From: Odontesthes bonariensis | Taxonomy: Eukaryota; Chordata; Actinopteri; Atheriniformes; Atherinopsidae | NCBI RefSeq assembly: GCF_027942865.1 | Contig: NC_134526.1 | Span: 8,660,784-8,724,783 of the forward strand | Reading direction: 5' to 3' | Length of the DNA: 64,000 nucleotides | In this document: positions 4,502-52,961 of the stretch, one piece after another | Layout: each line of letters opens with the position of its first letter | How positions within the stretch are numbered: the first letter of the stretch is position 1 | Notes under the pieces: generated by a model | What the model saw: the letters and a program-made list of their open reading frames with translations, nothing else | What the model was told of the DNA's origin: nothing | Database searches by the model: none | Translations under genes and position numbers: made by a program

Positions 4502-7500
4502 ATGAACTCAAATCCTGGAGTTCTGCTGCTCCTGCTCATCTCTGCTGGGGTGAGGTCAGTGCCCATTGATCGCAATGTAGGTAACCAGGAGCCTAAACAG
4601 GAGGTGCAGGAGGAGAACATGGTAAGCATGTCAAATGCTCTCTTGATATTAGATTTAGCTGAGAGTCAGTTTGTTATAACCCGTACTTTCCATCGCACGT
4701 TTTCAGGACACCGGCCTGTACTACGACAGGTATCTCAGAGAGGTGATTGAGGTTTTGGAGACTGATCCTCACTTCAGAGAGAAACTCCAGACAGCAAACA
4801 CAGAGGATATCAAGGTTAGCTTCTACTTGTGCAGCAGCATGGTTTGTTACCTCTTTTTTTTTATTTGTGACTGTCACACTGTGATCTCTCATTGAACTCA
4901 CCTGGTCATCTTGTGTTTGTCACCAGAACGGGCGTCTCAGTAAAGAGCTGGATCTGGTCGGTCATCATGTCAGGACCCGGCTGGATGAGCTGAAGCGCCA
5001 GGAGGTTTCTCGCCTCAGGATGCTGCTGAAGGCCAAACTGGACAGCACCAACACACAGAGTGAGTGGGCATGCTTTCCTACAGGCCACTGAAGAATGTTT
5101 GTCTTATTAGACACAACTTTTGACATTGTAGACTCCACGAGATGCTAAAAAGAGCACAATTCAGATCACCATTCACTATCCAAAGCCATAACTCAGTAAC
5201 AAAGGGGAAACTGTGACTATATTTACATCTGGAACTTGAATCATGAATGGTAACTATAGCTTGACATGCTGGTAGAAGCCCACCACCAGGAAGCTGTTAA
5301 TCTAGCTGGCTTTTGAAAAATGTGATGATACTTATTAATACTTAATATTATTCAGTATAAATTTATGTCAATTATTAGTGAATACAGAGTTGTGCCTGTG
5401 TGTTGGGTAAGATATACAGAACATAATATAAGTGCAGCATCTGGTTTATGATGAATGCATCTCCTCTGCAGGTCTTCAGATGGACCACGCCTCGCTGCTG
5501 AAGCAGTTTGAACATCTGGATCCACACAATCAAAACACCTTTGAGGCCAAAGACCTCAAGCTGCTGATTTCTACGGTAAGATGTATGAAGATTTGCCCCA
5601 ACTGACCTCGACTTTCACTTAAAGTCTTGAAAGTATTTTGAGAAAATGGCGTTTGTCTCATCGACTCTTCATCTAGGCCACTAAGGACCTGGAGAATTAT
5701 GACGCTGAGAGACACGAGGAGTTCAAGCGTTACGAGATGCTGAAGGAACATGAGAGGCGGGAGTACCTGAAGGGTCTAGACCAGGAGAAAAGGGAGAAGG
5801 AGGAGAAAAGGATGCAGGAGCTGAAGGAGAAACACCGCCAGCACCCTAAGATTAACGCTCCTGTAGGCAGCAGATGCTTCCATGTTGAATGTATAGTAAA
5901 AAAACTAAATGAGAGCAAAACACGTTTTAATTCTTTATTTTACATTTTCCAAATCTCAGGGCAGTGTTGCTCAGCTGCGGGAAGTCTGGGAAGAGAGAGA
6001 TGGACTGGATCCTCAGGAGTTTAACCCTAAAACCTTCTTCAAATTGCATGGTGGGTAAAAACTCTGTTGTTTGTCACTTCATTGAGATGTGTTTTATATG
6101 ACAAAAGTTTATTATTTCTTCTCCACTTTATGTAGATACGAATGAAGATGGTGTTTTAGATGAGCAGGAATTAGAGGCACTCTTCACAAAGGAGGTATTC
6201 AAAACTGAGGGTTTAACAAACCCTTATGAGAACATTTAACATCCTGGATTGATGGTCTGTTTAGAAATATAGTTGTTTTGTCTGCGGAAATCAGTTTCTG
6301 TAGAAACAAGGAAAATGTTGACCTGATGGCACTGGAATAGCTTCTAACATCTGCTGTTGTCCGTGCTCCAGCTGGAGAAGGTCTATGACCCAAAGAATGA
6401 GGAGGATGATATGATGGAGATGGAGGAAGAAAGGCTGAGGATGAGGGAGCATGTCATGAACAACGTAGGTCTTACATATTTCACTTTGCTCTTGCACAAT
6501 TTCCCATGATTTGCTTTGTCTGATACAGATCCGCACTCTGTTTAAAGGTGGATACAAACAAAGACCGGCTCGTCAGCCTGGAGGAGTTCCTCAAATCCAC
6601 AGAGAAGAAGGAGTTCAATAGTCCCAAAGAGTGGGAGGTAAATGGCTCAGGAGTGGCCTGATGTGTGTGGGTAACTGGAGAGTCTATGGTTCAAGTCCCA
6701 GGATAACCACAGTGAAGTCAGATTAATGCTATCAGCTCTGGATTGAACTGGTTTAAATTTGCTTGGTTCAATGAGGGTCTGTGAGAATCAGGATTTATTA
6801 GAGAGTGATGGGAATGTTTTTAGGGTGACGCTGAAATGTACCCACACACATCCTTTACATATATCCCCTCTCACTAGGATGGCTGGAGTGGTAGCGTTCC
6901 AACAAAGGGAGATTATCCATTCTTGTCCTTGAATGTGTAGCCCACTTGTCAAAGTATGTCCTGGTTCCCCAACATCTGACACGGACCTTGTTAATCCGGG
7001 TGATGTCCGAGCTGGCATGGCTTCATTTCTGTGTCTCTTGCTCATATTTGATTCCATGGAGGTATGCCCTGACCGGGAATCGGGAGGTCCCAAAGTCAAA
7101 ATGGAAGATGCCTCCAAAGGTGATGGGGAACAAGAGAGCTAAATCCTGTTGGACTTCCTGATAGCAATTCCAAGTGACAGCAACATGAAGAAAAAGAAAC
7201 ACAATGCTCAAGAGGGAACAAAGACTGAAAGAGATTAAAAAGATGTGCGAAGGGAAGGGAACATTAGTGCCAGTGGTAATCTGAGCACTCAGGATCGTGA
7301 TGTCCAAACTGGGAAAGTGGCTCTAATAGATCCCAGGACCACCATCAGAGATCTCTGCCCAGAAAACACACAGTTCTAGGAACAGATGAGATTCCGCGTG
7401 GAACTCTGAAGCTCCCAGGCCTCTGTTAGAAGACCCAAGCTTGAAAGGGCGTCCTCCCATAAGAGGGGCGAGTAGTTTTTATATCTGCTATCCAGATACG

Positions 7501-7875
7501 TTTTGCCTGTGGTAATGCTCATCGATACAGTGCATATACGATCCATGGGTGACATTAATAGAAAAGTGAAGACTTGAAAGTTTACTAGTTGTTAAGTCAA
7601 AAGACTATTTAAAGGAGTAAGAAGCACTGAAAACTGCCAATATAATTCTGTCAATATTAAATATTCTGCTACAGTAGCCCTACTCCTATGAGCACAAATT
7701 CCCCTTGAATACCATCAAATGCCAAAATTAAAAGAAAATCCTCATAACAAATAATGATTTAAAATAAATAAATAAATAAATAAAAAATGTTTTAATGCAT
7801 CTGATATATTGCCTGCATACTGATGCTACAGTTTAAGGTGTATTGTTGCTTATGAAGCCAAGATATCTCTATATA

Positions 7876-7915
<40 letters not shown>

Positions 7916-8636
7916 TTTATTATTTTGGCTGTTTTTTTTTTCTTACTGCTTTCATGATGCTTGCCTTTCATGTGAGAAATGGGCATCTTGCCAAAAAGTA
8001 TTTTCAGACTGTCAATAGAGGTGGTAATCTGTGTATTACATACTCGCCCCTCTCTCCCAGACTCTGGATGCCAACCCAGTGTACACAGAGGAAGAGCTCC
8101 AGCGATTTGAAGCCGAGCTCAAGGACAAAGAGGAGGAGCTGAAGAGGAAGGCAGAGACTCTTCGTCAGGAGCAGGAGCTGCTGAGGGAGAGAGGAAAAGC
8201 CCTGGAGGCCCAGAGGAGAGAGTACCAGCAGGTAACTGTTCCACATTACTGACAAAAGAAATTGGATTCTTTCAGTTTCATCAAGTTTTAAATTGAGTCA
8301 TGGTGTATGGATAGAGCCTAAGTGATTTTTTTTTTTTTTTTTTTTTTTTATGTAATTCCAGGCTGTGCTAGAAATGTCTCAGAGGCCGAAAGACCAGCAG
8401 GCAGCCGATGGACAGCCTCCTGCGGGTCCTAATGGAGATCTTCAGTTTCAACCACAGGCTGAAGTTAAAGGTGAACCATCTTAGCTGGAACCATCAAACA
8501 CTGTTGTTCTGTTTGTTTCCATTAAGTGAATCTTCCTATCTCTCTCTCTTTCTTTCTCTCAGTGGCTAAAGCCCCAGTTGAAGCCCAGAACAATCTGCCT
8601 GCTGAACCTCCACAGAATCTGCCCATACACACTTAA
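4502..8636 (+). CDS. nucb1: Nucleobindin 1 (calcium-binding Golgi/secreted protein)
   Basis: Twelve coding exons give 445 residues (human NUCB1 is 461): 4502-4621, 4707-4814, 4927-5059, 5472-5575, 5677-5862, 5960-6050, 6136-6194, 6372-6464, 6548-6637, 8061-8231, 8362-8470 and 8563-8636. Order: signal peptide (residues 1 to about 20, ending before PID); nesfatin-like block ([23 protein letters not shown]); basic region (about 183-215); EF-hand 1 (248-259, [12 protein letters not shown], canonical); acidic spacer; EF-hand 2 (300-311, with R where Gly is usual, as in mammals); then the LEEFL...KKEF stretch that binds G-alpha in mammals; and a heptad-rich coiled coil (329-385). EHLDP and TFEAKDL mark NUCB1 rather than NUCB2. 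The protein is a Golgi/ER-lumen calcium-binding protein that is also secreted. The large intron 6638-8060 holds repeats. Confidence 0.95.
6640..6706 (+). repeat. Possible tRNA-derived SINE head
   Basis: ggttcaagtcc at about 6689-6699 matches an RNA polymerase III B box. A weak A-box-like stretch (tggctcaggagtgg) starts just inside the nucb1 splice donor. This looks like an old tRNA-related SINE, but the match is short. Confidence 0.3.
6870..7450 (+). mobile_element. LINE fragment with R4/Dong-like endonuclease end
   Basis: The interrupted frames resemble the restriction-like endonuclease C-terminus of R4/Dong-type fish LINEs. The recognisable parts are an IAIPSDSN block at about 7160-7185, a following charged helix, and an LGTA-like stretch near 7375. 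Several stops and frameshifts show it is dead. It lies inside the 1.4-kb nucb1 intron. Confidence 0.5.
7761..7911. repeat. Microsatellites (AAAT)n and (TG)n(TA)n
   Basis: A short (AAAT)n run occurs at about 7761-7786. A compound TG then TA dinucleotide run occurs at about 7876-7911 and is followed by poly-T. Both are in the nucb1 intron. A second poly-T tract lies at about 8327-8349, just upstream of an acceptor. Confidence 0.85.
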
Positions 8637-8734
8637 GGCAGCACCCTCTGACAGCCTTAACACACACAGGCTCGCACATTTTACCTTGCACTGAGACAGA
8701 TGGGTTCTGCTAACTGAACGAGGTGAACTGTGTG

Positions 8735-8914
8735 AATAAACTCAGACAGGGCGGCTTGTTTATCGTTACATATTTTGCTGTGTGTTCATCTCTGTGGTCT
8801 ATATTAGATTAAAGATTTCCAAACACCAGCTGTTAGTACATGTTTGTTCAGGTGTCTTCAGTTTCATTGAAGCTTTCATTCATGCAGTGTCTTCAGTATT
8901 AAATCACAAATAAA
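8735..8914 (+). terminator. nucb1: nucb1 polyadenylation signals
   Basis: AATAAA at 8735-8740 and again at 8909-8914 lie 99 and 273 bases past the nucb1 stop. Either could terminate the message; the first gives a short 3' UTR. Confidence 0.55.
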
Positions 8915-8939
8915 GTCCTAATTTAAAACCTGTGAACCA

Positions 8940-9994
8940 GACTTCTTGAGCTCAGATTATTTGTGGGAACTCATCAGGAAAACGTTTTTCCTTTCCTCCT
9001 CCTGCTTGTCATTCTACACATTTATTTTTATTCCTTTTCATAAAATATTAGGGTTTAGCTTTAAGTTGCATGCACAATTAGAAAGATTTTAGAAGAAGAC
9101 AATTATTTTACACCATGACTACGACTGGCAGATGTACCCGAAATCTGAAAATAATCTAATATTAAGATTTACTGTTGAGATGAGACATTTCCACACGTTG
9201 GACTGTGGAAAGGACATTAGTTTACTGTTTTATTTACTTTTCATCAAACTGCACTAAAAAGAAAATGTATTGATGTTACCGTAAAAAAGGTCATTATATT
9301 TCAGTCTTTCTTAGTGTCACTGTTTTTTTTTGTTGTTGTTGTTGTTGATTGGCCAAACTTAGTACACTTTTAGGTATTCAAGTTTTTGGTTTGTGAGATA
9401 CTTGATCATTGTTTCAAGTTATAACTGAACCCTGCTCGAATGTGAGGTGAAACATGTTCAAGAATCAACAAAAAGAAGAATAGTTGCCTCAAGGTCTTAG
9501 AATGACGATAATACAGATTCCTTTTTTCTACTCTTTGAATATTGATATGTACAGTGCATCACTGTATAATTAGCATTTTTTTGGGCTTCTCCTGGCCCAA
9601 CTGAGCCATAAGAGCCAAACGTAGCTTGGAATAGGGCTGAATGTGTCTGTTGTGTCTGTTGTTGGGCTTCTAGCCTTGTGGTGCTTCACTATTTTAAGTA
9701 GACCTTATAATATTAAGATCCATCAGTATGAAATATCAATAAAAAAAATCATAGAAAAATAGTTGTTTACAGAATATGGCAACTTGGCAAAAGACAATTT
9801 TGGTTTAGAATGAGTCTACATAAACTGAGATGGTCAAAAGAAAAAGCTCAATTTAACCAAGTTTCAAATAGACATTTTTGTCAAGCTTAAAACTAAAAAA
9901 GCGGCTAGATTAAAAACTTTAATTGACAATCGTAAAACTGTAAACCGACTGTTTTGATAGATTTATTATGTAAAATATTTTGTAAGTAGTCTAT
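8940..9994. other. Intergenic, no gene seen
   Basis: AT-rich sequence between nucb1 and the inverted-repeat transposon. It holds a short (TTG)n run at about 9331-9347 and no ORF, RNA gene or repeat family that I recognise. Confidence 0.6.
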
Positions 9995-10773
9995 AGCCCC
10001 TTTCACACTGCCGAATAACCCGCGTTTAATTCGCTAATTTAGCGTGTCCGCTGTTGCGTTCACACTGCCGACCCGGGCTGCCGCGTCAACTCGACTCGCC
10101 TTTCGACCCGCGTCGGACCCTAGTCTTTTTGCCGAGCCGAGTTTGGTGTGAACGCAATCGACGCGGGTCAGACGTGGGCGTGGCGTGACGTGAGGAGTTT
10201 AAAAGACAGAATGGACAGCTGATTCAGAACAACAGCGACAGGTGAGGACAAGTTTTACTCTGTTTTAGCCTACATCAAGTTCGAGACATTTTTTATTATG
10301 GCCAACTGGGAAGACAAGGAGGTCCGCGAGCTCCTCAGCCCCCGAGCAGAGGACGTTATTTACCGCCACATGTCGGGGACGGTGAAGGATGGACCTCTGC
10401 TGGAAGGGCTGGCGAGAAAGACGGGAGAGCGCGGTTTCCCACGCAGCAAGACGCACTGTAAAGTAACATCTCCATGAACTGCATATACAATTGCAAAAAC
10501 GAGTTCTCAAGGTGTCCCGCCATCGTTTGTTTGAAAAATTTGATGCAGACAGGTGTATTTCACCCTACCTCCGACGCATGGCTTGTGCCTACGTCATTGT
10601 ACACGCCCAGCATTTTATGTGTTTCGTGTGACGCTCTGCCACTAGGCAACTCCCCCTGAACTCGGCTTCTGGCGACACCGGTCATCAACACGCCAAGCGT
10701 TCACATTGCTCAACGCGGGTCGAAGGTGCAATTTGGACCCGCTAAGGTAGCGGGTCGCAGTGTGAAAGGGGCG
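9995..10773 (+). mobile_element. Non-autonomous Harbinger-like DNA transposon
   Basis: Terminal inverted repeats of about 16-17 bases (gcccctttcacactgc at the left, its complement at the right) bound 779 bases. They are flanked by TAT at 9992-9994 and 10774-10776, a likely 3-base target duplication. Inside is a 59-codon ORF (10298-10477) starting MANWEDKEVRELL and containing GTVKDGPLLEGLARKTGERG. This resembles the Myb/SANT-like DNA-binding protein carried by PIF/Harbinger elements. No transposase is present. The interior is GC-rich with CGACCCG-type repeats. Confidence 0.6.
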
Positions 10774-10846
10774 TATGTCCTCTGGGCTCATGTTTGTATT
10801 TTGTAAAGCAACTGCATTCAGTAAAGTTTATGTAGAAAAAAAAGTC

Positions 10847-10872
10847 TCACTTCCGGTGAAGACCGGAAGTGA
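10847..10872. promoter_or_regulatory. Palindromic double ETS/GABP site
   Basis: tcacttccggt and accggaagtga form 11-base inverted arms around a 4-base spacer. Each arm is a full ETS/GABPA consensus (ACCGGAAGTG). Paired sites like this are typical of TATA-less broadly expressed promoters. They lie 86 bases before the ATG of the HTH exon at 10958, so this is the likely promoter of the transposase-derived gene. Confidence 0.55.
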
Positions 10873-10957
10873 AAATAACGGATTCGGAGTGTTTCCTTGT
10901 TGCTAAAAGAAAAATAACAATAATAAATGTTTGGAGATATTAAAGGGTAGCGTCATA

Positions 10958-13900
10958 ATGCCTCGCAGAAATGAGATCCCAGAAGGTATCCGATCGGCAG
11001 TTGTGGAATTGCACGTGGCCGGAAAGGGCTATAAAGTGATTTCAAAGAGTTTAGATGTACATCATTCTACAGTAAGACAAATTATCTACAAATGGAAGCG
11101 GTTTAATACTGTGGCTACGCTGCCTCGATGTGGGCGTCCCTCTAAATCTCCAAAAAGAGAACCATGGATGCCCGGCGAGGTAAGAAACAGCAGAAAGCTT
11201 CGTGGGTGGCACAGCTTCAGAACATCTCTGTCAGACTGTCAAACTAAACAAAGCTCTGCACACTAAACGCTGCTCAGACGCATGTCAAGGATGCTCACAT
11301 ATTTTGGCACTGGATCATAATCTGTCTTCTGCTGCACAGATTTGTTTTTCAGATATGTTCACTTTCTCCTATTTGTGTCCATTTTCCATAAATAAAGCTT
11401 TCTTAAATAAATAAATAAGTCACTTCTGGGTTATTCCCGTGGAATCGATAAAAATGTCAATTTCTCGTCCTGTGTTGCCTTAAATGTGTTTGTTATTTGC
11501 CCTTTTTCATGACCCTATTATTCACAAAGTAATATCTCAGAATGTCTCTTCTTTGATATTAGTTTCATGTGTTATTTAAGATGGGTTCTTTCTGTCTTAA
11601 TAAATCCAAACCTTTTATTGGAGCACATGGCTCAAAGCCGGTAACAAAACTCAGTAAAAATCTGAAGTACAAGTAGATGAACGACCAGCTATTTTGAAAG
11701 GGTATCGATAGGTGGATTTTGGTACTATAGTTCCATCTGGTCTTATGTCCTGTCATTTGAACAGGCACCCAGTCCAGAGGATTTTTTAAATGTGCTTGTC
11801 CGCTCTGGTGTTGCAAAGAAAGACCTGCGGCTCATCTCATGTTTCCTCTGTCCTCCATCCTCCTGTCTGTGACCTGAAAATCAATCCAAGCTTAGAATTT
11901 TGATGGTTCTGTTGATGTGTCTCTATGTATGACCAGGATAACAGCAAATATGGGCAGCAATATATTGAAACAAATGAAAACATAAATGGAAATTCTATTC
12001 TATGAGATGAAAGTCAATGTTTGGTCTGATCTACTTTGTTCTTCAACACAACCTGAACCCTCAGACAAGCTTCCTTGTCATTTCTTTAAGTAGTCTTTGG
12101 GAATAGTTCTCCAGGCTTCTTGAAGGACAGTCCAAAGCTCTTTTTTTTTGCTCTGTTCTCTGTCACAATGACCCCACACTGCTTTATTAATGTTGAGGTC
12201 CGGGTTCGGATTCATAGGTCCGTGTTAAGTAGCTTTACAAACAAAAAACAAACATTCCTCTGAAAATAGTCAGGTACAGAGACTGAAGTGAGAAAACAAT
12301 CATTTTTATGATGCATCGGTGCCACACATCACATTTAGCCAACATCGGTTTAGCATCACAGCTCAGAAGCAAAGATGTCTCGTTTTATTTATTGCTTTTG
12401 TTAAAGATCTGCCTGTGGTGAAGTTATCACAAGTCATGTCTGAATAATTCTTTTTCATAATTTTCCGTCTCTTAGCCTGATGATGCCTCAGCGGGACCAG
12501 CAGATGACAGAGGAAGATATTTGGACCATGAAATGGTAAAATGTCTTCACGCAAGGATTTCTTAATTGAAGAAAGTTCACTGATTGTTTTCCTTTTGAAA
12601 CACAGAAATACCGCAATGTCATACCTGAAGCTACCAGGAATGTAGGTTGTTCCACATCTGCTCCTGAAGCCTCAGATGAAGATCCGACGGTGTGTGAGCT
12701 AATCAAACATATAAAACAAGTAGTTACAGATACTATACTGACCACAGGGAGATCCTAGAAACTGATCATTTGCTGCCTCTTAGGCTGTTCGCGTGTCTGC
12801 TGGGCCAGCTCGTGTCAAACAGGAAGACCCGGACCACGACACGGTAAAATATGTTCACGCAGAGATGGTTTGACTTCAGTCGGAGAAAATGTCCTCACTC
12901 TGTTTTCATGTTGAAATCCAGAGAGACTACAAGATTGTCTACGACGTCGGTGAGGACGCAGAGTCCCTCTCATCTGACATTGATGAAGAAGATCCCATGG
13001 TGCGTGAGCTTCTTCTACATGAAACAGATTTTCTACAGATACTTAAATGTTTATGTCAAGATTCTTATCAGATTTCTTTTTGTGCGTCTCATAGGCCAGT
13101 TATCTGTCTGGAAGGCCAGCAGACGACACAGGAGGAGATCCAGACCCTGACCTGGTAAAATACAGTCATGTGCATAGTATTTTCCACTAAATAGTAAAAG
13201 ATTATACATAAAGTTGTGTAGTTCTTTGCCATTTAGCCATGAGGTGTCATCATGCCAGGACCAGAGGAGCCTTTAATGCCGTCTTTATTAAAGGCAGATT
13301 AGAAAGCAAGCGCTTTGTGAAAGAATTGATACTTTCTTATCCAGTGGGGGGAGTGGAAGAAGGCTTGGATAAAGCAGCGGCTGCTTTGAGTTTTTTGAGT
13401 CGGTCTCTCCTGAATCACGGTGATCGCTTAGTCTTCAGTCTCTTCGCTTCATCATGTTGTTGGGAGACGTGTTGCTTGTTTTTGGAGAGATGAAGACAGC
13501 AGATGAGAACAGATCGTGTGGGACAGCTTGAGTTCATACAGATGTTGGAAATCCTTCAGACAGGATAGAGACATATTTGCCTTTAATGGAGACGACTCGG
13601 CAAACTTCACCGGCTCTCTGAGTCTGTGGATGTGGCTGTATTATTATGGATTTGTTGACATTTTATCCAAAAAGACTCAAAGAGCTGATGGACTGCCTTC
13701 GTCAAAGACCAATGCTCTCGTAGATGTTGGAAAATTAGTCCAAATATAATTCATTTGATGAATGACTGTTTGATATTTAACAGATTATTCAGGAAGCAAA
13801 TTATCCTCAAAGATAACTGAGAAAATGTGTAAACTTGTTGGTGATTGCTTTTCCTTTCTCACCCTTCCATAGATTCTATCACAAAGCATCATTTTGGTTC

Positions 13901-16539
13901 TTTATAGGACAATGAAATCTGATTTCTTAAGGCGAGGAATGGAAATCATCCCCGTCTTTATATTTGTACTGTTCGAGTGCATGTTATTTATCACCATGGT
14001 AAAGTGCTGCAAAGGCTTCTAAATGTATGTAGATGTTTTCAGATGCTCTCGACATTCCTGGCTTGGTGTGGAAAGGCCTTTGGCCATCAGACTGTGCTCA
14101 CCTGTCTGTCTCTCTGTTTCTTCTGTTCCAGCGCAGAGGAGAGAGCGGCTCGGCCTCATCTGATGACGACACCACAGAAGATCCAACGGTTTGTTTTTCA
14201 TTTGGGATATTCTTTCATTTGTTTATTCGGAGTAAGTTCATTTGGGTGTATCGTCATGGTTACTTTGTAAAACATCTTTCTGCTCTGTAACATGTCCCCT
14301 GGAGCAGCTTTTTGACCCGAGCTTTGACGGGGAGAAGAAGATCTATGCTGGTTCTGCCATCACCGTGGGTGCTCTCCTCCTCTTCCTCCTGACCTTCCTC
14401 CTGAAGCATGGCCTCTCACAAGCAGCAACCAAAGACCTCCTGGACCTCCTAAATTTTGCGGTGCCTGGATGTGTTCCCAGGTCCCTGCGGTGTTTGAAGA
14501 AACACTTGACTGATTATAACGATAAGACAGAGATTCACTTGTATTGTCCCAAGTGTGCCAACTACCTTGGTGTTGAGCCTGGTACTGAGTGCAGAGTGTG
14601 TCAGCAGCGCTTGAGCAAAAAAGTTCTACTTGAGAAGGCTTGTTACTTCCTTGTAATGCCGCTCGAAATTCAGCTAAGAAACATCCTTGCACATGTCCAC
14701 TCAAAGCTAGGGAAGCATTTCACAAAGAGCTCTTCCATTTCTGATGTTAACACTGGAAGCGCGTACAAGCTTGCTCAACAGGACGGCAGTATCACTCTCA
14801 CCTTCAGATGTGACGGCTCCCCGCTGCTCAGCACACCAAAGTTTTCTGTGTGGCCCATCCTGTGCACAATCAACGAGCTGCCGTACGTGGAGCGCTGTAA
14901 AAATGTTCTGTTGAACACGTTGTGGTTCGGCAGAGGAAAGCCACAGGTTCAGAGCTTTTTCACCCCGTTCATCAATGAACTTCATAAACTCGCTGACGAG
15001 GGGTTCATTTGGAAAGATGAGAGCGGCTCAGAACATCGCACCCGCGTAAAGGCTAAAATATGCGTGTGCAATTCAGTAGCACGGCCGCTGGTGCAGAACT
15101 TTCAGCCATTTAATCGAGAATTTGGTTGTGGGTTTTGCTACCACAGAGGTGAGATGGTTCAAAAGGGCCGGGGTTACACCAGAGTTTATCCGATACAGAT
15201 GGACGGGTGTGACCTGCGACATATGGCTGAAATAGAGCATCTGGCTGAGCTGGTTATAGAAAATGGTTATGAACAAGGCCAGATGGGTGTGAAAGGTCCG
15301 AGTCCACTGCTCCTGTTGCCATCATTTGACATTATCAAAGGCTTTATACCAGATTATATGCATTGTTTTTGTCTCGGTGTTGTCCCTGAGTTTGTCAATC
15401 TTTGGTTTAACCCTCTTTATACCAGCAAGCGCTTCCATCTGACACCTCAGCATTTGAAAGACCTGGACAAAGCTCTCTGTGCCATTCAACCACCAAACGA
15501 AATCCAACAGAGCCCGAGGCGGCTCAGTGAGAGGATGTGTTGGGAAGCGTCTGAGTGGAGAGCTTTTGCTCTCCTCTATTCTCCAGTAATACTGAAGAAG
15601 GCTTTACCAAAGCTGTACTACCAACACTGGATGCTTCTGATTTGTGCATTTCACTTCCTCCTTTCCCGGTCCGCCACTCAGGATGAACTCGGTTATGCAG
15701 AGTTATGTCTGGTTCAGTTTGTAGCACAAGTGCCTTCTCTGTATGGGCTTGAGCACTGTTCATTTAACTGCCACTTGCTGACGCATCTTACTGAGAGCGC
15801 CCGTAACTGGGGTCTGTTATGGGCCAGCTCGGCCTTTGTTTTTGAGGGCACCAACAGCAGACTCTTGCAGATGTACTCCGGCACGCAGTCTCTCTCCTCG
15901 CAGGTTTTCACGCAGCTCTTTTCTTTTGAGGAGGTTATCAGAAAAGGAAGTGCTGCACTTCAGAATTCAAACACAGAAATGAAAGACTTCTTTTGTTCTA
16001 TGGTGAGTTTTGATACCGTTTCTAAGTCATCAAATTACTCAGGAGAAAACGTGGTGGCTTTAGGATGTGGATCCCAAAGATCTTTAACCACAAGAGAAAT
16101 AACTGCATTGCAGGGCAATGACACAAAGTACCAGCAAGATCAGGGTGACGTGACTGAATACAAGTGTGTTGTTTATGATGACATGTTAGTCACCGCTGTG
16201 GATTACAGTGTCGCGTGCAAAAGGAACAACTCTGCCATAGAAACAAGCAGTGGCTTTGCTATGGTGGAGTCTGTGGTGGTTCTACCAAAAACCTGCAGCT
16301 GTGAGGAAGCCTCCAACTGCTCCTGCAGACAAGTTGTTGCTTTCTGCCAAAAACTGCTGCCAACAAGCAGCCAGCCAACTATCCACGACCCACAGATCAA
16401 CACCAACATAGCAAATTTCCTCGTAAGAGTAAGGAGCTCAGATGAGCTGTGTGCGGTGGCGTGTGGAGACATCGTCGCTAAATGTTGTGTGATTGAGCAA
16501 GACGGACGGTTATATGTGATGAGGATGCCTGTGTTTTAG
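10958..16539 (+). CDS. Putative chimeric transposase-derived gene: Tc1-type HTH plus EnSpm/CACTA transposase
   Basis: Eight exons, all phase 0 with usable GT-AG sites (10958-11179, 12476-12535, 12606-12689, 12784-12843, 12922-12999, 13095-13154, 14132-14188, 14308-16539), would encode 950 residues. Residues 1-74 are a Tc1-type paired-like HTH (HHSTVRQIIYKWKR, GRPSK). Then come six short acidic exons in three pairs. The last exon resembles EnSpm/CACTA TNP2-type transposase: LLKHGLS and DLLDLLNF helices, a CPKC...CRVC zinc-binding pair, DGSP...WPI...NELPY, DYMHC and FEGTNSRLL. Acidic residues at 14812 (D), 15352 (D) and 15844 (E) align with the family's conserved acids. The 2.2-kb last exon has no stop or frameshift, unlike every other transposon relic here. 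No terminal repeats were recognised. The link from HTH exon to cassettes is inferred; the HTH exon could instead belong to a separate short transcript. The function is unknown; DNA binding is likely. Confidence 0.6.
11391..11396 (+). terminator. Intronic polyadenylation signal after the HTH exon
   Basis: AATAAA about 210 bases past the HTH exon donor could end an unspliced short transcript. That transcript would encode 103 residues from ATG 10958 (stop at 11267-11269). This is the main alternative to splicing into the transposase exons. Confidence 0.3.
12043..12221 (-). mobile_element. Tc1/mariner relic
   Basis: On the minus strand the sequence resembles the C-terminal end of a Tc1-like transposase (an AWRTIPKDYLKK-like stretch), followed upstream by broken frames. 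It lies in the first intron of the transposase-derived gene and is truncated at both ends. Confidence 0.55.
12476..13154 (+). repeat. Tandem 310-bp two-exon cassettes
   Basis: Exon starts at 12476, 12784 and 13095 are 308 and 311 bases apart. Each start has a 20-codon exon with a SAGP/SGRP-like core, ending in gtaaaat donors. The paired second exons (12606, 12922) begin with a basic/aromatic stretch and end DEDPT or DEEDPM, with donors gtgtgtgag and gtgcgtgag. The introns are also similar (ttcacgca near the first donor, tacagatact in the second intron), so the DNA segment was duplicated rather than single exons. A third second-type exon lies at 14132-14188 (ends TEDPT) after a 977-base intron. 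Confidence 0.65.
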
Positions 16540-17113
16540 ACACCAAGTGTCTGTCTCTCTCACTGCGGCGGGCTTCTGTCCACATTCACACAGCAGGATT
16601 GTGTGACACACTGTGTATTCTGTAGGATGATAAACACTTTTGTAAATTTCACCGTCCGGTTCATGTACTTTTTTTACTTAAAATCATCACTCATGTCTTC
16701 GTTATCACACTCTAACTTACTATTGTATGATTGAACTTTTCAAGCGTACGTTTCTGTTTTGTATTGGTTGTAAAGTGGACTGATGAAACTCCCTTTTTTT
16801 GCATTTTTATTTTATTACAAAAAAATTCAGCACAAATGTTGAGCGGTGAGTTGTGGAAATTGAGATTGAGAATCTTTGGATTTAGCTGCTCTCCTCTTTG
16901 GGCAGTGACGGCAGCGCTGTCTGGAAGTGCCCCATAAATGTGCTGTTAACTTTGAGGCATGTTTGTTCTTAATATCTTGCATGGTGCAATATGGAGCCTC
17001 CTATTCAGTCTTGTTTAGAGAGATTTGTGTCCTTTTTAATTTTGTTTTGTTCTCATGAGAAATGTGCCTTTTCTTTTTTTTATTCTGGTTCCTTCACATT
17101 TCATGTCATGATA

Positions 17114-17318
17114 AATAAAAAAAAAGCCTCTTATTCTCACGGTGCCATCCAAACGTTGATAAATATTCCCCGGCACTGCCTGTTCTACGGTTATATCTTG
17201 TACATACTGTGAATAATCCACATAACTGCTCAGAAACAGTTGTAGGTATTGCTGTACCATGTAATACCATACGTATATCTCTGTATATGATAAGATATTT
17301 CATGTTAATAATAATAAA
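17114..17318 (+). terminator. Polyadenylation signals of the transposase-derived gene
   Basis: AATAAA at 17114-17119 and at 17313-17318 follow the stop at 16539 by about 575 and 775 bases. The intervening sequence is AT-rich and non-coding, as expected for a 3' UTR. Confidence 0.45.
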
Positions 17319-17655
17319 ATTTTACAAACGAGAAGTATGTTACAGGCAGCCTCATGATTTGGAGGGAAGTTGGGTTGTCTCAGGAAAAACACATCAGTAG
17401 GGGAGTTTTATTTAAACTAAAGAACCGATTTATTTTCAGTGAAGGACAAGAACTTCCTGTTGACATTTGTTCATTTGTTCTTTTGGTTTAATGTGCATTA
17501 AATCTTATATAGTCCAGTTTATGACTATGTGATGTAGTATAGTATGCTTGTATGCATAACACACTGTGTTCTGATCCTGTTCACGTGTTTTTGTAAACGC
17601 AGCCTCCCCCTCCTCTCCTCCTTCAGCTCCACCAGAGTCTCTGCAGACATTGGGT

Positions 17656-17858
17656 CTGTTGTCCACTGCCGCAGCTCCCAGAGGACCTCCTCATCCTCGC
17701 TGTTGTCCACTGCCACAGCTCCCAGAGGACCTCCTCATCCTCGCTGTTGTCCACTGCCACAGCTCCCAGAGGACCTCCTCATCCTCGTTGTTGTCCACTG
17801 CCACAGCTCCCAGAGGACCTCCTCATCCTCGCTGTTGCACCACTGGCTGCAGCTCCGG
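17656..17858. repeat. 44-bp minisatellite
   Basis: Four full copies start at 17656, 17700, 17744 and 17788. A diverged partial fifth starts at 17832. The core reads gtccactgccacagctccca and continues gaggacctcctcatcctc. Copies differ by one or two bases (for example gccgcagc in copy 1). Because 44 is not a multiple of three, the ORFs running through it change frame every copy and are not convincing genes. Confidence 0.9.
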
Positions 17859-17859
17859 G

Positions 17860-19110
17860 CATTCCTATCAGCATTCCTCTCACCCAATGACCTGTCATGA
17901 CCCTGCAGGGCCCCTCCCCTCCTGGTGTCCGTGCAGCTGCCACTAATCACTCACTAGTGTCACTTCAGGCAAATATAGACGTCTCAAAAAAGTTCTCTGG
18001 AGTTTTCATGTTTAGTGTGTGTAAATGCTTTTGTTCCTCCATTACAGAGGATCAGCATGAACACTGGGGATGAACAAAGATGCTTTTAGGAAATATTTAC
18101 ATGCAGAATGTTTTCATTTTTTAGCCAATTGTTCTGCACATATTCCCCAGTTAGTCAGATATATTTTACATGCTTTATTAAACCTTTTTCTAATTATTTT
18201 TTAAGGTAGACTAATTCAAAATAACTTGACATGTCAAGTTGTTGAAAGTGTTGAAAACAAGACGTGCAGTAAGAAATCATCACCATCATAAAAACTAAAG
18301 TGGATGTAAATGTATTAAAGTATATTTAGACCAAAAAAAAGAGGATAGGTTTGCGTGAATGTTTTTAATGAACTTTTGTGTTGTCTTTGTTTGTCTGTGG
18401 GGGACATCTCACTCCCCAGCAGATCTGAGGTTTCTGCCAAAGCTTTCTGAGCAGAGGCAGCACTGAAGCTGTCGACACAGTCAGCAAGTCCGTTTAGTTA
18501 AGACGTCACGGTCGGACGGCGTGATACTCCGTCATCTGGTGTTTTACTTCAATCAGATACAATGAAATACCGTTACTCCACATCGCTGTGACGCCTCACA
18601 ATATATTTTACAACACTTCAACACAGTCACTAATTGTTTCTTTGCTCAGAAATTTAAATGACCCTTTCATATAAATTCTGATTAAATGTATAATAACAGC
18701 TCTTTAACATTCAATACTTAAACTAGATTCTTTTGATAATGTTGTGTTTTACAGGGTTGTAAATGCTTGATATTCATACGTAATTTAAAAGCTATAAGGA
18801 TTGGATTTATAGTAATGTGTTCTGTGTATTTGATGGAATCAGATGGAATACTCTGATGTGAGCTGAATCATTGTCACGCAGAGAGAAATAGTGCCAACTT
18901 GCAGGAGCTTCAGACTGCTCATCTCCGGTCTCTCCTATGAAACGTCTGGTGAACAAACTGAATGTACATTATGCATATGTGTGTGTTTTTATGTGCAGGG
19001 AATAATTAAAAAAGATAAAGTATCTGAGCAGGAAAAGTGCAAGTGTTAGATAGTTTTAATAAGCACAGTTACGCCTACACTTTTCCTGCCACAGTGAGCC
19101 AAAATATCAG
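17860..19110. other. Intergenic, no gene seen
   Basis: AT-rich non-coding sequence. There is no ORF of note, no RNA gene and no repeat that I can name. Confidence 0.5.
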
Positions 19111-19118
19111 CCCATATC

Positions 19119-19195
19119 AATCAATTAATCAATCAAACTTTGTTTATAACACACTTTTCATACATTAAAAACGTAGCACAAAGTGCTCTACATGT
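19119..19195. repeat. Interspersed fish repeat tail (aatcaatcaa...)
   Basis: The stretch from the atcaatcaattaatcaatcaa run through ttataacacacttttcat to acaaagtgctctacatg resembles a very common teleost retroposon end (tttatttataaagcacttttcat type). Only the tail is present. Confidence 0.5.
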
Positions 19196-19254
19196 TTAAA
19201 AGCATCGGTGTGACGGTACAACTGATCCAGATAGGTATATTCAAATTTTGAAAG

Positions 19255-19545
19255 ACGTTTGCCACCTTCAAGGCGGTGTCTTTCCCAGGAGCTCGGTGGT
19301 TATTTCAGCAGGACAATGCCGGACCTCATTCTGCTGGACTTCCAGCAGCATGGCTTCATACGCACAGAGTGTGTGTGTCTGACTGGCCTGCCTGCAGTCC
19401 ACATCTGCCCGCGGTCCACATCTGTCTCCTGTTTAAAATGTATGGAGCGTCATGAAGAGGAGAATCAGACAACAACCACAGACTGTTGGGCTACTCTTGG
19501 ATCCAGCGTGAATGGACACAGATTCCTCTGAAAAACTGCAACTCG
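19255..19545 (+). pseudogene. Tc1/mariner-type transposase C-terminal relic
   Basis: One frame reads FQQDNAGPHSA and, further on, SDWPACSPHLP. These match the second and third catalytic blocks of Tc1/mariner DDE transposases (QQDNA-PH, DWPA-SPDLNP). The usual D of SPDL is H here, and the frame breaks soon after. It appears to be from the same family as the relic near 41.4 kb. Confidence 0.6.
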
Positions 19546-20575
19546 GTTCCCAAATGATCTAAAGTGAAGGATTACAAGCATGACTCTATAAAACCTTTTT
19601 GTTTTTTTGTTTTATGAGTGTATTGTTGGCATCGAACATTAAATTTGTTTAGATTTTCTAAATGCAATGAAATTGGTCATTGCAGATGCTGAAAATAATT
19701 TATTTGCTCTTAACTTGGACTCGGAATGAACAAATTACAGATTTTATTGCATTTTAGAAAACATTTAACTTGTGAAAGAATATCTAAATCATGTGTGAAC
19801 AAATTTACATACGGTACTTGAGATGCAGGGCTTTGACTTGTGACAAAGTAATTGTATAATGCAATACCAGTACTTCTACTTAAGTAAATTACCTGAAAAC
19901 GTCCCCCAATGTTGCCTTTAAATATTTTTTTAGGATCCGCATTGATGTTCGTAGCTACATATAGGTCCTGAGTATTTCTGCCCTAACTCATCATCATGGT
20001 GCAATCCCCTGAAGAGGAACCAACACTGTAATTCTGTAAATGGAGACTCCTCCTGCTGCTGTTGTGCTGAGCTTTTAGTAACAGATCTCCCTGAGGCGGC
20101 GTTGCCAAATCACAGTCTGCCTCTTTATCCATTTCTCTAGTGCCTTGCTTCTTCTTGTGCTTTTACATCCTCAGACAAAATCACAAAAAGTTATAATTCA
20201 AGGCTGATTTCCCCCACGTGCTTGCAGATCATGTTGAATTTTTTACAAAATAATTAAATTCTTAAAACTAAATCCTCTCTCGGGTTCCTCTCATCAGTCT
20301 GATCAGTGATCTACATTAAGACAGACCTGAGGCTTTTACAAACAAAAGTGCACATGTGCTTTTAACCAGTATCTAGACAGGGAGTTATATATCTTGAAAT
20401 CTTATAATCTGTATGTCTGATTTTGTTCTTTTCTTCCAGATTTGAAAAAGTTGACAAATTGCATGCGCAAAACTAGAAAAATGACCAAAAACTACCATTG
20501 CATTATCATTTTTTCAAATTTTCCCAATGTTATACTGTGATATATGATCGCTGGTACGGAGCTCTATTAATACTA

Positions 20576-20675
20576 TTAGAATAGAATAGAATAGAATAGA
20601 ATAGAATAGAATAGGATAGAATAGAAAAATACTTTATTTACCCCCCAATGGGGGAAATTCAAATTCGTCAAGTAG
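20576..20675. repeat. (ATAGA)n microsatellite with retroposon tail
   Basis: About ten pentanucleotide ATAGA units run from 20576. They are followed by aaaatactttatttaccccc and gggggaaattca, a common teleost LINE/SINE 3' end seen with this microsatellite. Confidence 0.7.
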
Positions 20676-20679
20676 CTCA

Positions 20680-22580
20680 ACATTTTTTTTAAATATTTAC
20701 AATGATTGAATTAACAACAATAAAACAACAATAATAATACTACTACTAACTTAATAATAATAAATGACTAAATGGCAAAATAAACAAATAAATAAAAATC
20801 AATCAATCAATTGTAAACAATATCGGGGGAAAAAATGACCTCTTTGTACTTTTGGTCTTTTCTCATATCTCATCAGATTTAATCTGGCTTCACTTAGAGC
20901 TTTCTGCAGAGGCCATTACATCGTCTCCTCCACCACCTCCTTCCACAGTATTACCTGGATGTGAAAAAGGTAAGAAATTGTACTTTAAATTAAACATTTG
21001 ATTATCTAGAAAGATCCCTTGTACCCACCGAAAAATGACTCACTTTAAAATAAACTCTCCAAACGTTTAGGGTTTTGATTTCTTTTTTTAAAGATGTTTA
21101 ATATTGATACCCACATTTTAAGAGCTGCTTGTGTGACAAAAGTGATATTGGTTACCTTAAAACCTTGTAGGGAGCAGAGTGCTGCAGGTACCTAATTTAA
21201 ACGCTAGAGGGTGCAATTGATCAATGATGTTGGTCAGTTTGTAATATCACAGAAACAGAATACACTGCGAATAAAATCTTATACGCGACAGTTGTGATGA
21301 AGGGCTTTAGATTGGCAACTTAATACAGTAAAAAGCTGCAGAAATCAGCTGGAGGTGTGTATGAGGATGGGAGGTGAAAGACGGTTGTAGAGTTTTGTTT
21401 CTTTAAGACGCAGCATCTTCAAGAGGAAGAGAAAAAAACCGATTGGAAGTCGTAAAGTTACACAGAAACCTGATAAACGCAGGCGGAAACAGCAGCGTTA
21501 ACCTACAAAAGAAAATGTCTCCTCATCTGTTTTCCATGAGAAATTACATTTATTATGTGCATATATAAACAAAGGCTTTATCTAGAAACAGTTTAAAAAC
21601 AGTGAGGCACTTTCGACTCGCATGTTTTTCTTTTAGTTGTTCTTTTTATAGACCTCGTTCATCCACATTAGGGACATTTGGATCCTCATCAACAGTCACA
21701 AATGAACAGTATAGAATATCAATAATAAAATCAAATATACAACTATAATACGCCATCGAAAATACAGAAATAAACATTGAATAAGAGACTTAAAATACTC
21801 TCAAGATAAGTAACAAAAAGACAATAACTTTAGACATAGATTTGAAAGGTTTGAAAGACTTGTCATGGGATTTTTGCAGCTACATTTATTCTTAATTCTT
21901 GTTTTCTTTGTTTTCTTGTTTCTTTTGGTTTTGTTGACTTTTACAGATAGATGCTATAAAATAATGGAGCCAGGAGTACCAAGGTTGAAAGAAACACAAA
22001 ACAACCACAAGCCGTGCTGAGATGATTCATCTTTTATTTCTCCAACTGTACCTTGCAGATGTTTTGGATCATTTCACATCTCTTTGTGGTCCTATTCTTT
22101 TTCCATTGTGTACATTTGAGCTCACTTTTCATCTTGTATTTCCATTGTTTGTCAAATATAGGCCATTTTGTGTTTTTTTGGTCATTCTTCAGTCCTTGGT
22201 GGCCTTTTTTTTCTGTCTCACTGTGGTTGTTTACATCTGAGGCCCTTTGGGGTAATATTTCATCATGTCTGAGTCACTTTGGCTACAAGGAGAGGCAACA
22301 TGAACAAAAAAAAAGCACATTCTTTGCGTTATTATGGTGATTTGACATTTGCTCTTTTTACTCTTCCTTTTGTTTCTTTTGTGTCTCATTCTTCTTGCAC
22401 TCTCATTCTAGAATATATATTACCTGTATTTGTTTAAAAACAAGGGGTTGCTTGACTCCTTGAGCCCTGGGCCTATCAATCCGTCCAAACCGGGAGGATA
22501 ATCTCAGGGGGGGGTTTGAGGTGAAACACAGTCACAGATTAAATGTGGTCCGCTGAGAAAGGTACGGACAACAGCTGGTT
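20680..22580. other. Intergenic, no gene seen
   Basis: AT-rich DNA upstream of ppfia3. Scattered short ORFs lack coding character (long runs of F, L and S from T-rich sequence at 22022-22340). No RNA gene was recognised. Confidence 0.5.
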
Positions 22581-22599
22581 CCTGTAGCTGTTTATTCTG

Positions 22600-22817
22600 A
22601 AGTCATGGCCGGATGTGGTCCGCGCTCCTTACGCACACCTTGACGCAGCAGCTGATCCGTGCCGTCGCTCCCACAGCAGAGGGAGGGAGGGGACGGGGAA
22701 GGCTGGTAACCGGGCTGTAACGGGGATAACCTGCAGCCTCCGTCTCTCAGACGCCCTGATGGAGTGAACCGGGTAACGATGCGCGTTTATTTCCTCCCTC
22801 TGTCGATCATGGAAAGG
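22600..22817 (+). promoter_or_regulatory. ppfia3: Probable ppfia3 promoter and non-coding first exon
   Basis: GC-richer, CpG-containing sequence ends in a strong donor (GGAAAGG|GTAAGACA at 22818). The next matching acceptor (ctccctccag, ending 23789) opens the exon that holds the ppfia3 start codon at 24126. The 5' end of the exon is not determined; the range is approximate. Confidence 0.45.
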
Positions 22818-24125
22818 GTAAGACACACAAGTGGTTTGGTGGCGATTGTAATCCGCAGCTAGTGCGGCACGCGCGGATGTAGCCGTGCGTTAGATCGTCC
22901 AGCTGTTTTTATGGGTGGGGGCAGTGGGGGGCAGCGGGGTGTTGATAGGAAATAGACGCCTTACTGTCGGAATAAAGCCAGAGCGGCGCACCGTTTGGCC
23001 CCATATAGGTTCAAAATACCACATGAAATAATCCAATTGTGTAACATTTTATGGTGTAATCTTGTTAATTAGGCTTGCATCATTTACAGGATGATTGGCA
23101 CCTCCCACCATGATGTGATAGCGGTGTGAGGCTATCCTGTACAGCCGTCAATGTACTGAAACAGGCTGTTTTTCCCCGTTTAGGCCCTTTATTTTTCCAA
23201 GACAGCATTTAATTATCTGCCCCAACACCCCGAAGACAATAAACATTTTGAAATGTTTTACAGATAGGCTCCGGAGACGTTAAAAAAGAAGCACATCTTC
23301 TCTTGGTACTGCCAGTAATTACAATTCATGATGACACCCTTTTTCCCCTCTCCACATAAATGTAAGAAACGGCGCGGCATCCTTCTCCAACCTCCAGGCC
23401 TTGACAATTCTTCTGTGTTTGCGTGACGGCGTTTTGTTGGCAGAAGCTGCTCTCATTTCCGTACATCATACGCATTTATCGTTACCATTAAGAGTGTGAA
23501 CGCTCGGATACATAAAGCCGTGACATGCACAGATTGATGAATTACTCCAGAGTATCGCGATGCAAGTCGGTGTGGTTATTTTTTTTCCTGTGAGGATTGG
23601 AAAAACGCCCGAGAAAAGTGTATATTCCGTCGGTGCATGTACCCGGGGGATCCACACGAGTGAGGACAGAAGAGATCACAACCTGGAGGGCAGTGCAGAC
23701 TTCTGGCGTCCATCCTCTCACATCTGATCTTCTTATCATGTCTGGTTTGCTTGAAAACAAGACTTCTCATCTTCTTCTCCTCCCTCCAGGTTCATCTGGC
23801 TGCTCTGTGAAGCTTGGACCGAGGGGTCAGAGGTCACCCACCGAACCTGCACTTCTCCCTCTTGTCCCTGCACCCCACTTCACCCCCTTCCCCAATCCCT
23901 GATCCATACACTGCTTCCCCGAAAACCTCCTAGAACCGTCATTTTATTCCCAGTTTTCCCTCACAAACACCTGCCCTTTGCCTGTGAATCCCACCAAGTC
24001 ATCTTGAGAGGAAACACCCCCGACAAACAAAATACTGGTTGTACTTTTCATGACGCGTGATCAGCTGCTCACCAGAGCCTCCTAGTCATCTCCTCAGATA
24101 ACGCCTCTCACAGCCAGGCGTCAAG

Positions 24126-52961
<28,836 letters not shown>

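Follow-up and report, generated by a model that had tools for sequence, protein, structure and literature searches.

Host-transposase fusions formed through transposase capture were reportedly described by Cosby and colleagues in 2021. Such capture normally unites the DNA-binding domain of a transposon with a host domain, and the commonest described fate of captured vertebrate transposases is transcriptional regulation. In nematodes, a Tc1/mariner HTH has been captured by F-box genes (PMC12062965). Multi-exon transposases are ordinary for the CACTA superfamily, because those of plants have one to six exons (PMC4158355). Across titles and the opening lines of abstracts in the open-licence literature, we recognised neither a domesticated vertebrate EnSpm/CACTA gene nor a fusion of Tc1 with EnSpm, and we noticed no description of such a fusion in PMC12062965, PMC8978399, PMC4158355 or PMC9341512.

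A candidate for such a fusion is found in Odontesthes bonariensis, in the 64,000-nucleotide stretch of DNA that we analysed (hereafter, the window). Eight predicted exons on the plus strand (10958-16539), separated by seven introns that are all of phase 0, lead from a Tc1-type HTH to an EnSpm-type transposase. Translation of the joined exons gives 950 codons and a stop, with no internal stop; all eight exon lengths are multiples of 3 and the boundaries are AG/GT. An earlier sequence-only reading of the window had proposed that a Tc1 HTH exon and an EnSpm-type transposase exon share one open frame with seven phase 0 introns, and both points hold. We believe, with slightly more confidence than doubt, that a Tc1 HTH exon was captured upstream of an EnSpm-type transposase gene and that the product was kept as a host gene. 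The features of the locus are as follows.

10848..10871, plus strand: inverted ETS-like pair, possible promoter, from an exact motif scan (CACTTCCGG ... CCGGAAGTG)
10958..11179, plus strand: exon 1, Tc1/Sleeping Beauty-type HTH (HTH_SB) with GRP motif, start codon and strong donor
11391..11396, plus strand: AATAAA within intron 1, where a short transcript with only the HTH might end, from a motif scan and translation
12476..12535, plus strand: exon 2, type A acidic exon of unit 1, phase 0 and open, aligning with exons 4 and 6
12606..12689, plus strand: exon 3, type B acidic exon of unit 1, phase 0 and open, resembling exons 5 and 7
12784..12843, plus strand: exon 4, type A acidic exon of unit 2, from open frame and unit alignments
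12922..12999, plus strand: exon 5, type B acidic exon of unit 2, from open frame and unit alignments
13095..13154, plus strand: exon 6, type A acidic exon of unit 3, from open frame and unit alignments
14132..14188, plus strand: exon 7, type B acidic exon of unit 3, acceptor ranking 1 of 224 AG sites
14308..16539, plus strand: exon 8, EnSpm/CACTA-type transposase, 743 codons, D-D-E kept
17114..17119, plus strand: first AATAAA/ATTAAA past the stop codon, possible polyadenylation signal, from a motif scan

As in host-transposase fusions and the F-box captures, a single-exon HTH of Tc1/mariner type is joined to an unrelated protein, and no transposon sequence was recognised around the HTH exon. 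Here, however, the partner is an EnSpm transposase gene rather than a host effector domain, and the joining splice is a predicted one. Splice sites were ranked with an approximate vertebrate matrix of general splice-site frequencies, and the scored sites had been preselected for an open frame, so the ranks are support for the model and not proof of it. The donors of introns 1-7 rank 1, 12, 4, 14, 3, 11 and 33 among the 211 GT sites of the region, and the acceptors rank 6, 23, 5, 59, 10, 1 and 50 among its 224 AG sites. The top-ranked sites are the donor of exon 1 and the acceptor of exon 7. Exon 7 also has the weakest donor, and the weakest acceptors belong to exons 5 and 8. Exon 1 would be spliced onto the remaining exons across an intron of 1296 bp.

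Exon 1 scores 60.7 bits against Pfam HTH_SB, well above the cut-off of 43, and matches the Sleeping Beauty transposase 2m8e by phmmer (E 3.3e-5), resembling its PAI subdomain. The candidate thus shares with Tc1 and Sleeping Beauty transposases an N-terminal HTH of PAI type and a GRP motif, but neither a second HTH subdomain nor a Tc1 catalytic domain was detected downstream in a six-frame Pfam scan of 11180-14131. HTH_SB alone exceeded its Pfam cut-off, and the full two-part HTH and DDE domain of Tc1/mariner elements was not found. The possibility that exon 1 heads a decayed full-length Tc1 is unsupported, those six frames being empty in Pfam. This silence is not strict, because a probable Tc1 fragment within intron 1 escaped Pfam too: at about 12040-12240 on the minus strand, in the orientation opposite to the HTH exon, lies what looks to us like the C-terminus of a transposase from a different kind of Tc1, for which neither phmmer against the PDB nor Pfam gave a match.

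A protein search of the genome with the HTH returned 150 scored matches among 3311 candidates, of which the closest others are 61% alike. Internal stops occur in 8 of the 150 and the other 142 are stop-free, so intact HTH frames are common in this genome; the intactness of the 67-aa HTH, earlier offered as a sign of selection, is by itself no evidence of it. Most of the copies that we read come from a single Tc1 family, which continues in broken frames into Tc1 sequence, and two matches at 48% sit in open frames of 353 residues. With DNA as the query (10840-11179), only six other places in the genome matched, at 78-82% over 68-77 bp, none of them before position 11021; the nearest, 82% alike, aligns over just 68 bp. 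The aligned HTH contains a stop in L006, L008 and L011, is split between frames in L007, is a short piece in L010 and is open over 50 aligned residues in L009, and Tc1 sequence follows it in L006, L008 and L009. Compared with a consensus of the Tc1 family (L047 and, for a gap, L059 left out, and the six DNA matches unused), the HTH exon differs at 19, 18 and 46 first, second and third codon positions (pS 0.886), while the differences of 17 family copies from their own consensus sum to 16, 27 and 18. Since L047, a second Tc1, shows 22, 20 and 41, the third-position excess may predate capture and have arisen within Tc1; by itself it would be no proof of selection after capture.

When pieces of one Tc1 family were compared with the window by tblastn, exon 1 alone matched at E < 0.05. 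Weak pieces in the window are a Tc1-like transposase piece at 19288-19422 on the plus strand (tblastn E 0.073) and another at 31112-31210 (tblastn E 0.16). A scan of 27-31 kb showed a Tc3_2 domain at about 30461-30586.

The frame of exon 1 reads on to 102 aa, with a stop ending at 11266, before the AATAAA at 11391. Taken with the commonness of intact HTH frames, the length of intron 1 and the lack of an HTH at the six related loci considered below, this would suit an explanation in which exon 1 is a leftover Tc1 HTH frame outside the gene, and the EnSpm-type gene has another start or has lost its 5' end. We find this rather unlikely, given that the exon 1 donor ranks first among the GT sites and has the right phase, that Pfam finds no downstream Tc1 remainder, and that the ETS-like pair lies just upstream. 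The 8-mers of this pair, which we take to be ETS sites, are two of only three exact ETS 8-mers in 64 kb and lie about 90 bp before the ATG.

A non-autonomous DNA element, young and high-copy, occupies 9994-10772 and is bounded by inverted ends that match perfectly over 16 bp; it had 1833 genome candidates, with 43 matches listed at 94-100%. Presumably it is of PIF/Harbinger type and holds a Myb/MADF-like frame, and it may affect the promoter because its end lies some 75 bp upstream of the ETS-like pair. A 44-bp tandem repeat in four near-identical copies is found at 17656-17831. Upstream lies nucb1, where NUCB1_N was detected in three pieces, two above the cut-off and one below, and a downstream frame at 24102-24482 is one that we take to be ppfia3. 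A PDB search with the first exon of this putative ppfia3 gave an unrelated weak hit only, and no Pfam families were detected in two of the three plus frames of 16540-27000.

Exon 8 scores 17.5 bits against Pfam Transposase_21 (PF02992), below the cut-off of 28.6, and has no sequence match in the PDB. We call it EnSpm-type because of its relatives in the same genome; the assignment made in the sequence-only reading is supported by these relatives and by the D-D-E, and Pfam stays below threshold. In a Pfam scan of three relatives, the matches of L013 and L019 to PF02992, DUF1258 or DUF4218 likewise stay below threshold, and L018 matches none of these families. Searching the genome with the exon 8 protein (60 scored of 104 candidates) gave 39 match rows with E <= 0.001, a count that includes the row of exon 8 itself and in which several rows share a locus; the three best other matches among those scored are 38-41% alike. 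Aligned with the relatives, the D-D-E falls on the D in FRCDG, the D in PDYMH and the E in FVFEG, columns that we presume to be catalytic. The second D is present here and is replaced by E in three relatives (L013, L014 and L015/L017). Zinc-ribbon-like Cys pairs can also be seen in exon 8 by eye. Because the D-D-E is kept, enzymatic activity of the EnSpm part is possible. Collections of viral, bacterial, plasmid and phage sequences held no real relative, the three viral hits being 18-residue matches.

A tree of 22 rows was built after exclusion of two double entries and of the six loci that had < 200 aligned residues; nine match rows had no locus. It shows five tight groups, and 8 of the 22 rows stand alone, the fusion candidate among these. 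The candidate's partner is a broken relic on C19, joining at 89/82, a placement to which the long-branch warning applies.

Like EnSpm/CACTA transposons, the candidate has a D-D-E transposase, and some of its relatives in the genome share the plan of acidic exons followed by a large exon. Ahead of the large exon, a single acidic phase 0 exon is predicted in the C24 relative, a counterpart of exon 7, and tandem series of four and three such exons are predicted in the C27 and C1 relatives, respectively. The latter two are 94-98% alike over their main shared stretches, and the large exon is broken in both. When up to 1.5 kb of upstream sequence was scanned at 13 loci, acidic exons were found at only two, namely C27 and C1 (antisense control 0/13; shuffles expect 0.2 in all). 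This plan appears to be common to part of the family. Because some relatives carry similar exons, the acidic exons would belong to the EnSpm-type gene, and therefore only the HTH exon would be foreign. The sequence-only reading had placed six short acidic exons between the HTH and the transposase; they would be part of the EnSpm-type gene, to which the HTH alone would have been added. A host origin for them is not favoured, the C24, C27 and C1 relatives having similar predicted exons.

The HTH itself has no such counterpart: upstream of six related loci, none convincing was found (best tblastn E per locus >= 0.09). These loci represent four distinct lines, as C24/C4 and C27/C1 are pairs, and at three of the six the sense frames of the upstream stretches were scanned with Pfam as well, the other three being covered by tblastn only. 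An HTH exon ancestral to the EnSpm family is accordingly unsupported. In a comparison of copies for element ends, C4 and C24 share only one edge, and the shared edge of C1 and C27 falls at TTAA, where it adjoins what we take to be a piggyBac piece; segmental duplication is a possible source of both pairs. On C24, a long tandem-repeat array lies directly upstream of the predicted acidic exon (L063/L015). A further relative, L013 (C26:15.93 Mb), has an intact 736-codon exon with E replacing the second catalytic D, and partial 99% copies of it occur only nearby on its own chromosome. A BED zinc-finger frame lies about 1.5 kb upstream of the L013 exon (L062:7144-7500), and perhaps L013 is another case of domestication, its DNA-binding head being a different one.

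Exons 2, 4 and 6 and exons 3, 5 and 7 resemble three copies of one two-exon unit. DNA alignment of unit 1 with unit 2 scores 53, and the top of 200 shuffles is 32. Unit 1 also exceeds the shuffle maximum against the exon 6 stretch (42 vs 27) and the exon 7 stretch (26 vs 23), as does unit 2 against the exon 6 stretch (33 vs 26). For two comparisons the score lies within the shuffled range: 21 for unit 2 against the exon 7 stretch (shuffle maximum 26) and 22 for the exon 6 stretch against the exon 7 stretch (shuffle maximum 29). For the encoded acidic proteins, z is 1.9 to 3.5 within type and <= 1.0 between types. Tandem duplication of the unit is shown for units 1 and 2 and supported for unit 3. 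Introns 2 and 4 (12536-12605 vs 12844-12921) are 82% alike (56/68) and exons 2 and 4 are 64% alike (37/58), which hints at fast change of the acidic exons, the numbers being small; introns 3 and 5 (67%, 60/90) and exons 3 and 5 (65%, 48/74) show no difference. As exon identity does not exceed intron identity, the acidic exons have changed no more slowly than the introns, and, within these small numbers, the acidic sequence is not visibly conserved.

With respect to mobility, exons 7-8, the acidic exon region (12440-13260) and the 3' flank (16540-17600) each matched only themselves in the 945-Mb assembly. An identical multi-copy element elsewhere in the genome, which the sequence-only reading had named as the observation that would overturn it, was searched for and not found, exons 2-8 and the 3' flank matching only themselves. 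As a control for the search, the element at about 9994-10772 gave its 43 listed matches, its own included. Counts of DNA copies are lower bounds, and absence from such a search is no proof of rarity; within that limit, the dispersed copies expected of an EnSpm/CACTA transposon were not found. Paired CAC[TG] terminal repeats, sought as 14-mers with up to 2 mismatches in 7000-10957 and 16540-21500, numbered 0 (null mean 0.14), in agreement with the earlier observation of no flanking CACTA repeats. The same scan around three relatives also gave none and so has no positive control, a qualification that extends to the lack of CACTA-type terminal inverted repeats with a short target duplication. The candidate thus differs from EnSpm/CACTA transposons in having no detected CACTA ends or copies and in carrying an HTH exon of foreign origin at its N-terminus. 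So far as the searches reach, it is a single, intact copy lacking mobile ends.

Singleton status is not remarkable in itself, because other EnSpm-type families are low-copy (L013 has 3 matches, all within 130 kb, and L019 is on two chromosomes) and because the tree contains other rows that stand alone. Low copy number, together with the intact frame, the kept D-D-E and the lack of any close relative in the genome, would also be expected of a recent arrival, for example by horizontal transfer, of an unusual EnSpm element with its own HTH exon, single and still or recently mobile. Against this, which we regard as quite improbable, paired ends and shorter DNA copies were not found, the 3' flank is unmatched elsewhere, and intron 6 (872 bp searched) holds diverged repeats that are 66-84% alike to sequences at 15 other places, with the exons still open.

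An open frame may also persist for a time under neutrality. In simulated neutral drift, by substitutions only, 40% of frames were stop-free at 1% change, and the probability fell to 0.12 at 2%, 0.04 at 3% and 0.0025 at 5%. The figure at 1% would allow for a neutral young relic in which decay has not begun for lack of time, an explanation that is very improbable in our view, as no sister copy was found at the DNA level and the HTH has only the short, 82% DNA relative described above.

Our best reading is that the gene is old and arose by transposase capture. Arguments from copy number, intactness and age suggest that it is probably domesticated, in keeping with the earlier proposal of a host gene, although low copy number counts for less than it seems to. 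The large exon and the short acidic phase 0 exons would derive from an EnSpm-type gene, a view drawn from relatives whose own exons are predicted from sequence, and the HTH exon would derive from a Tc1 element, added by splicing at the sites given above. Found once in the genome, between nucb1 and putative ppfia3, and without recognisable CACTA ends or sister DNA copies, the element is probably immobile and, within the limits of the searches, would be a host gene.

The protein would be expressed from the ETS-like promoter and bind DNA via its HTH, perhaps at Tc1-derived sites, and its EnSpm-derived part may serve in multimerisation, supply an acidic regulatory segment or retain strand-transfer chemistry. 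The fusion protein may act as a TF-like regulator. A more specific proposal, unlikely as it stands, is that a domesticated HTH joined to an EnSpm part with an intact triad has Tc1-derived sites as its targets and serves either as a regulator or as an active, re-aimed DNA-cutting enzyme. Transposase capture is already known, and the union of two transposase superfamilies is an unusual variant of it. If the captured-gene reading is true, the protein of one element can be re-aimed by the targeting domain of another.
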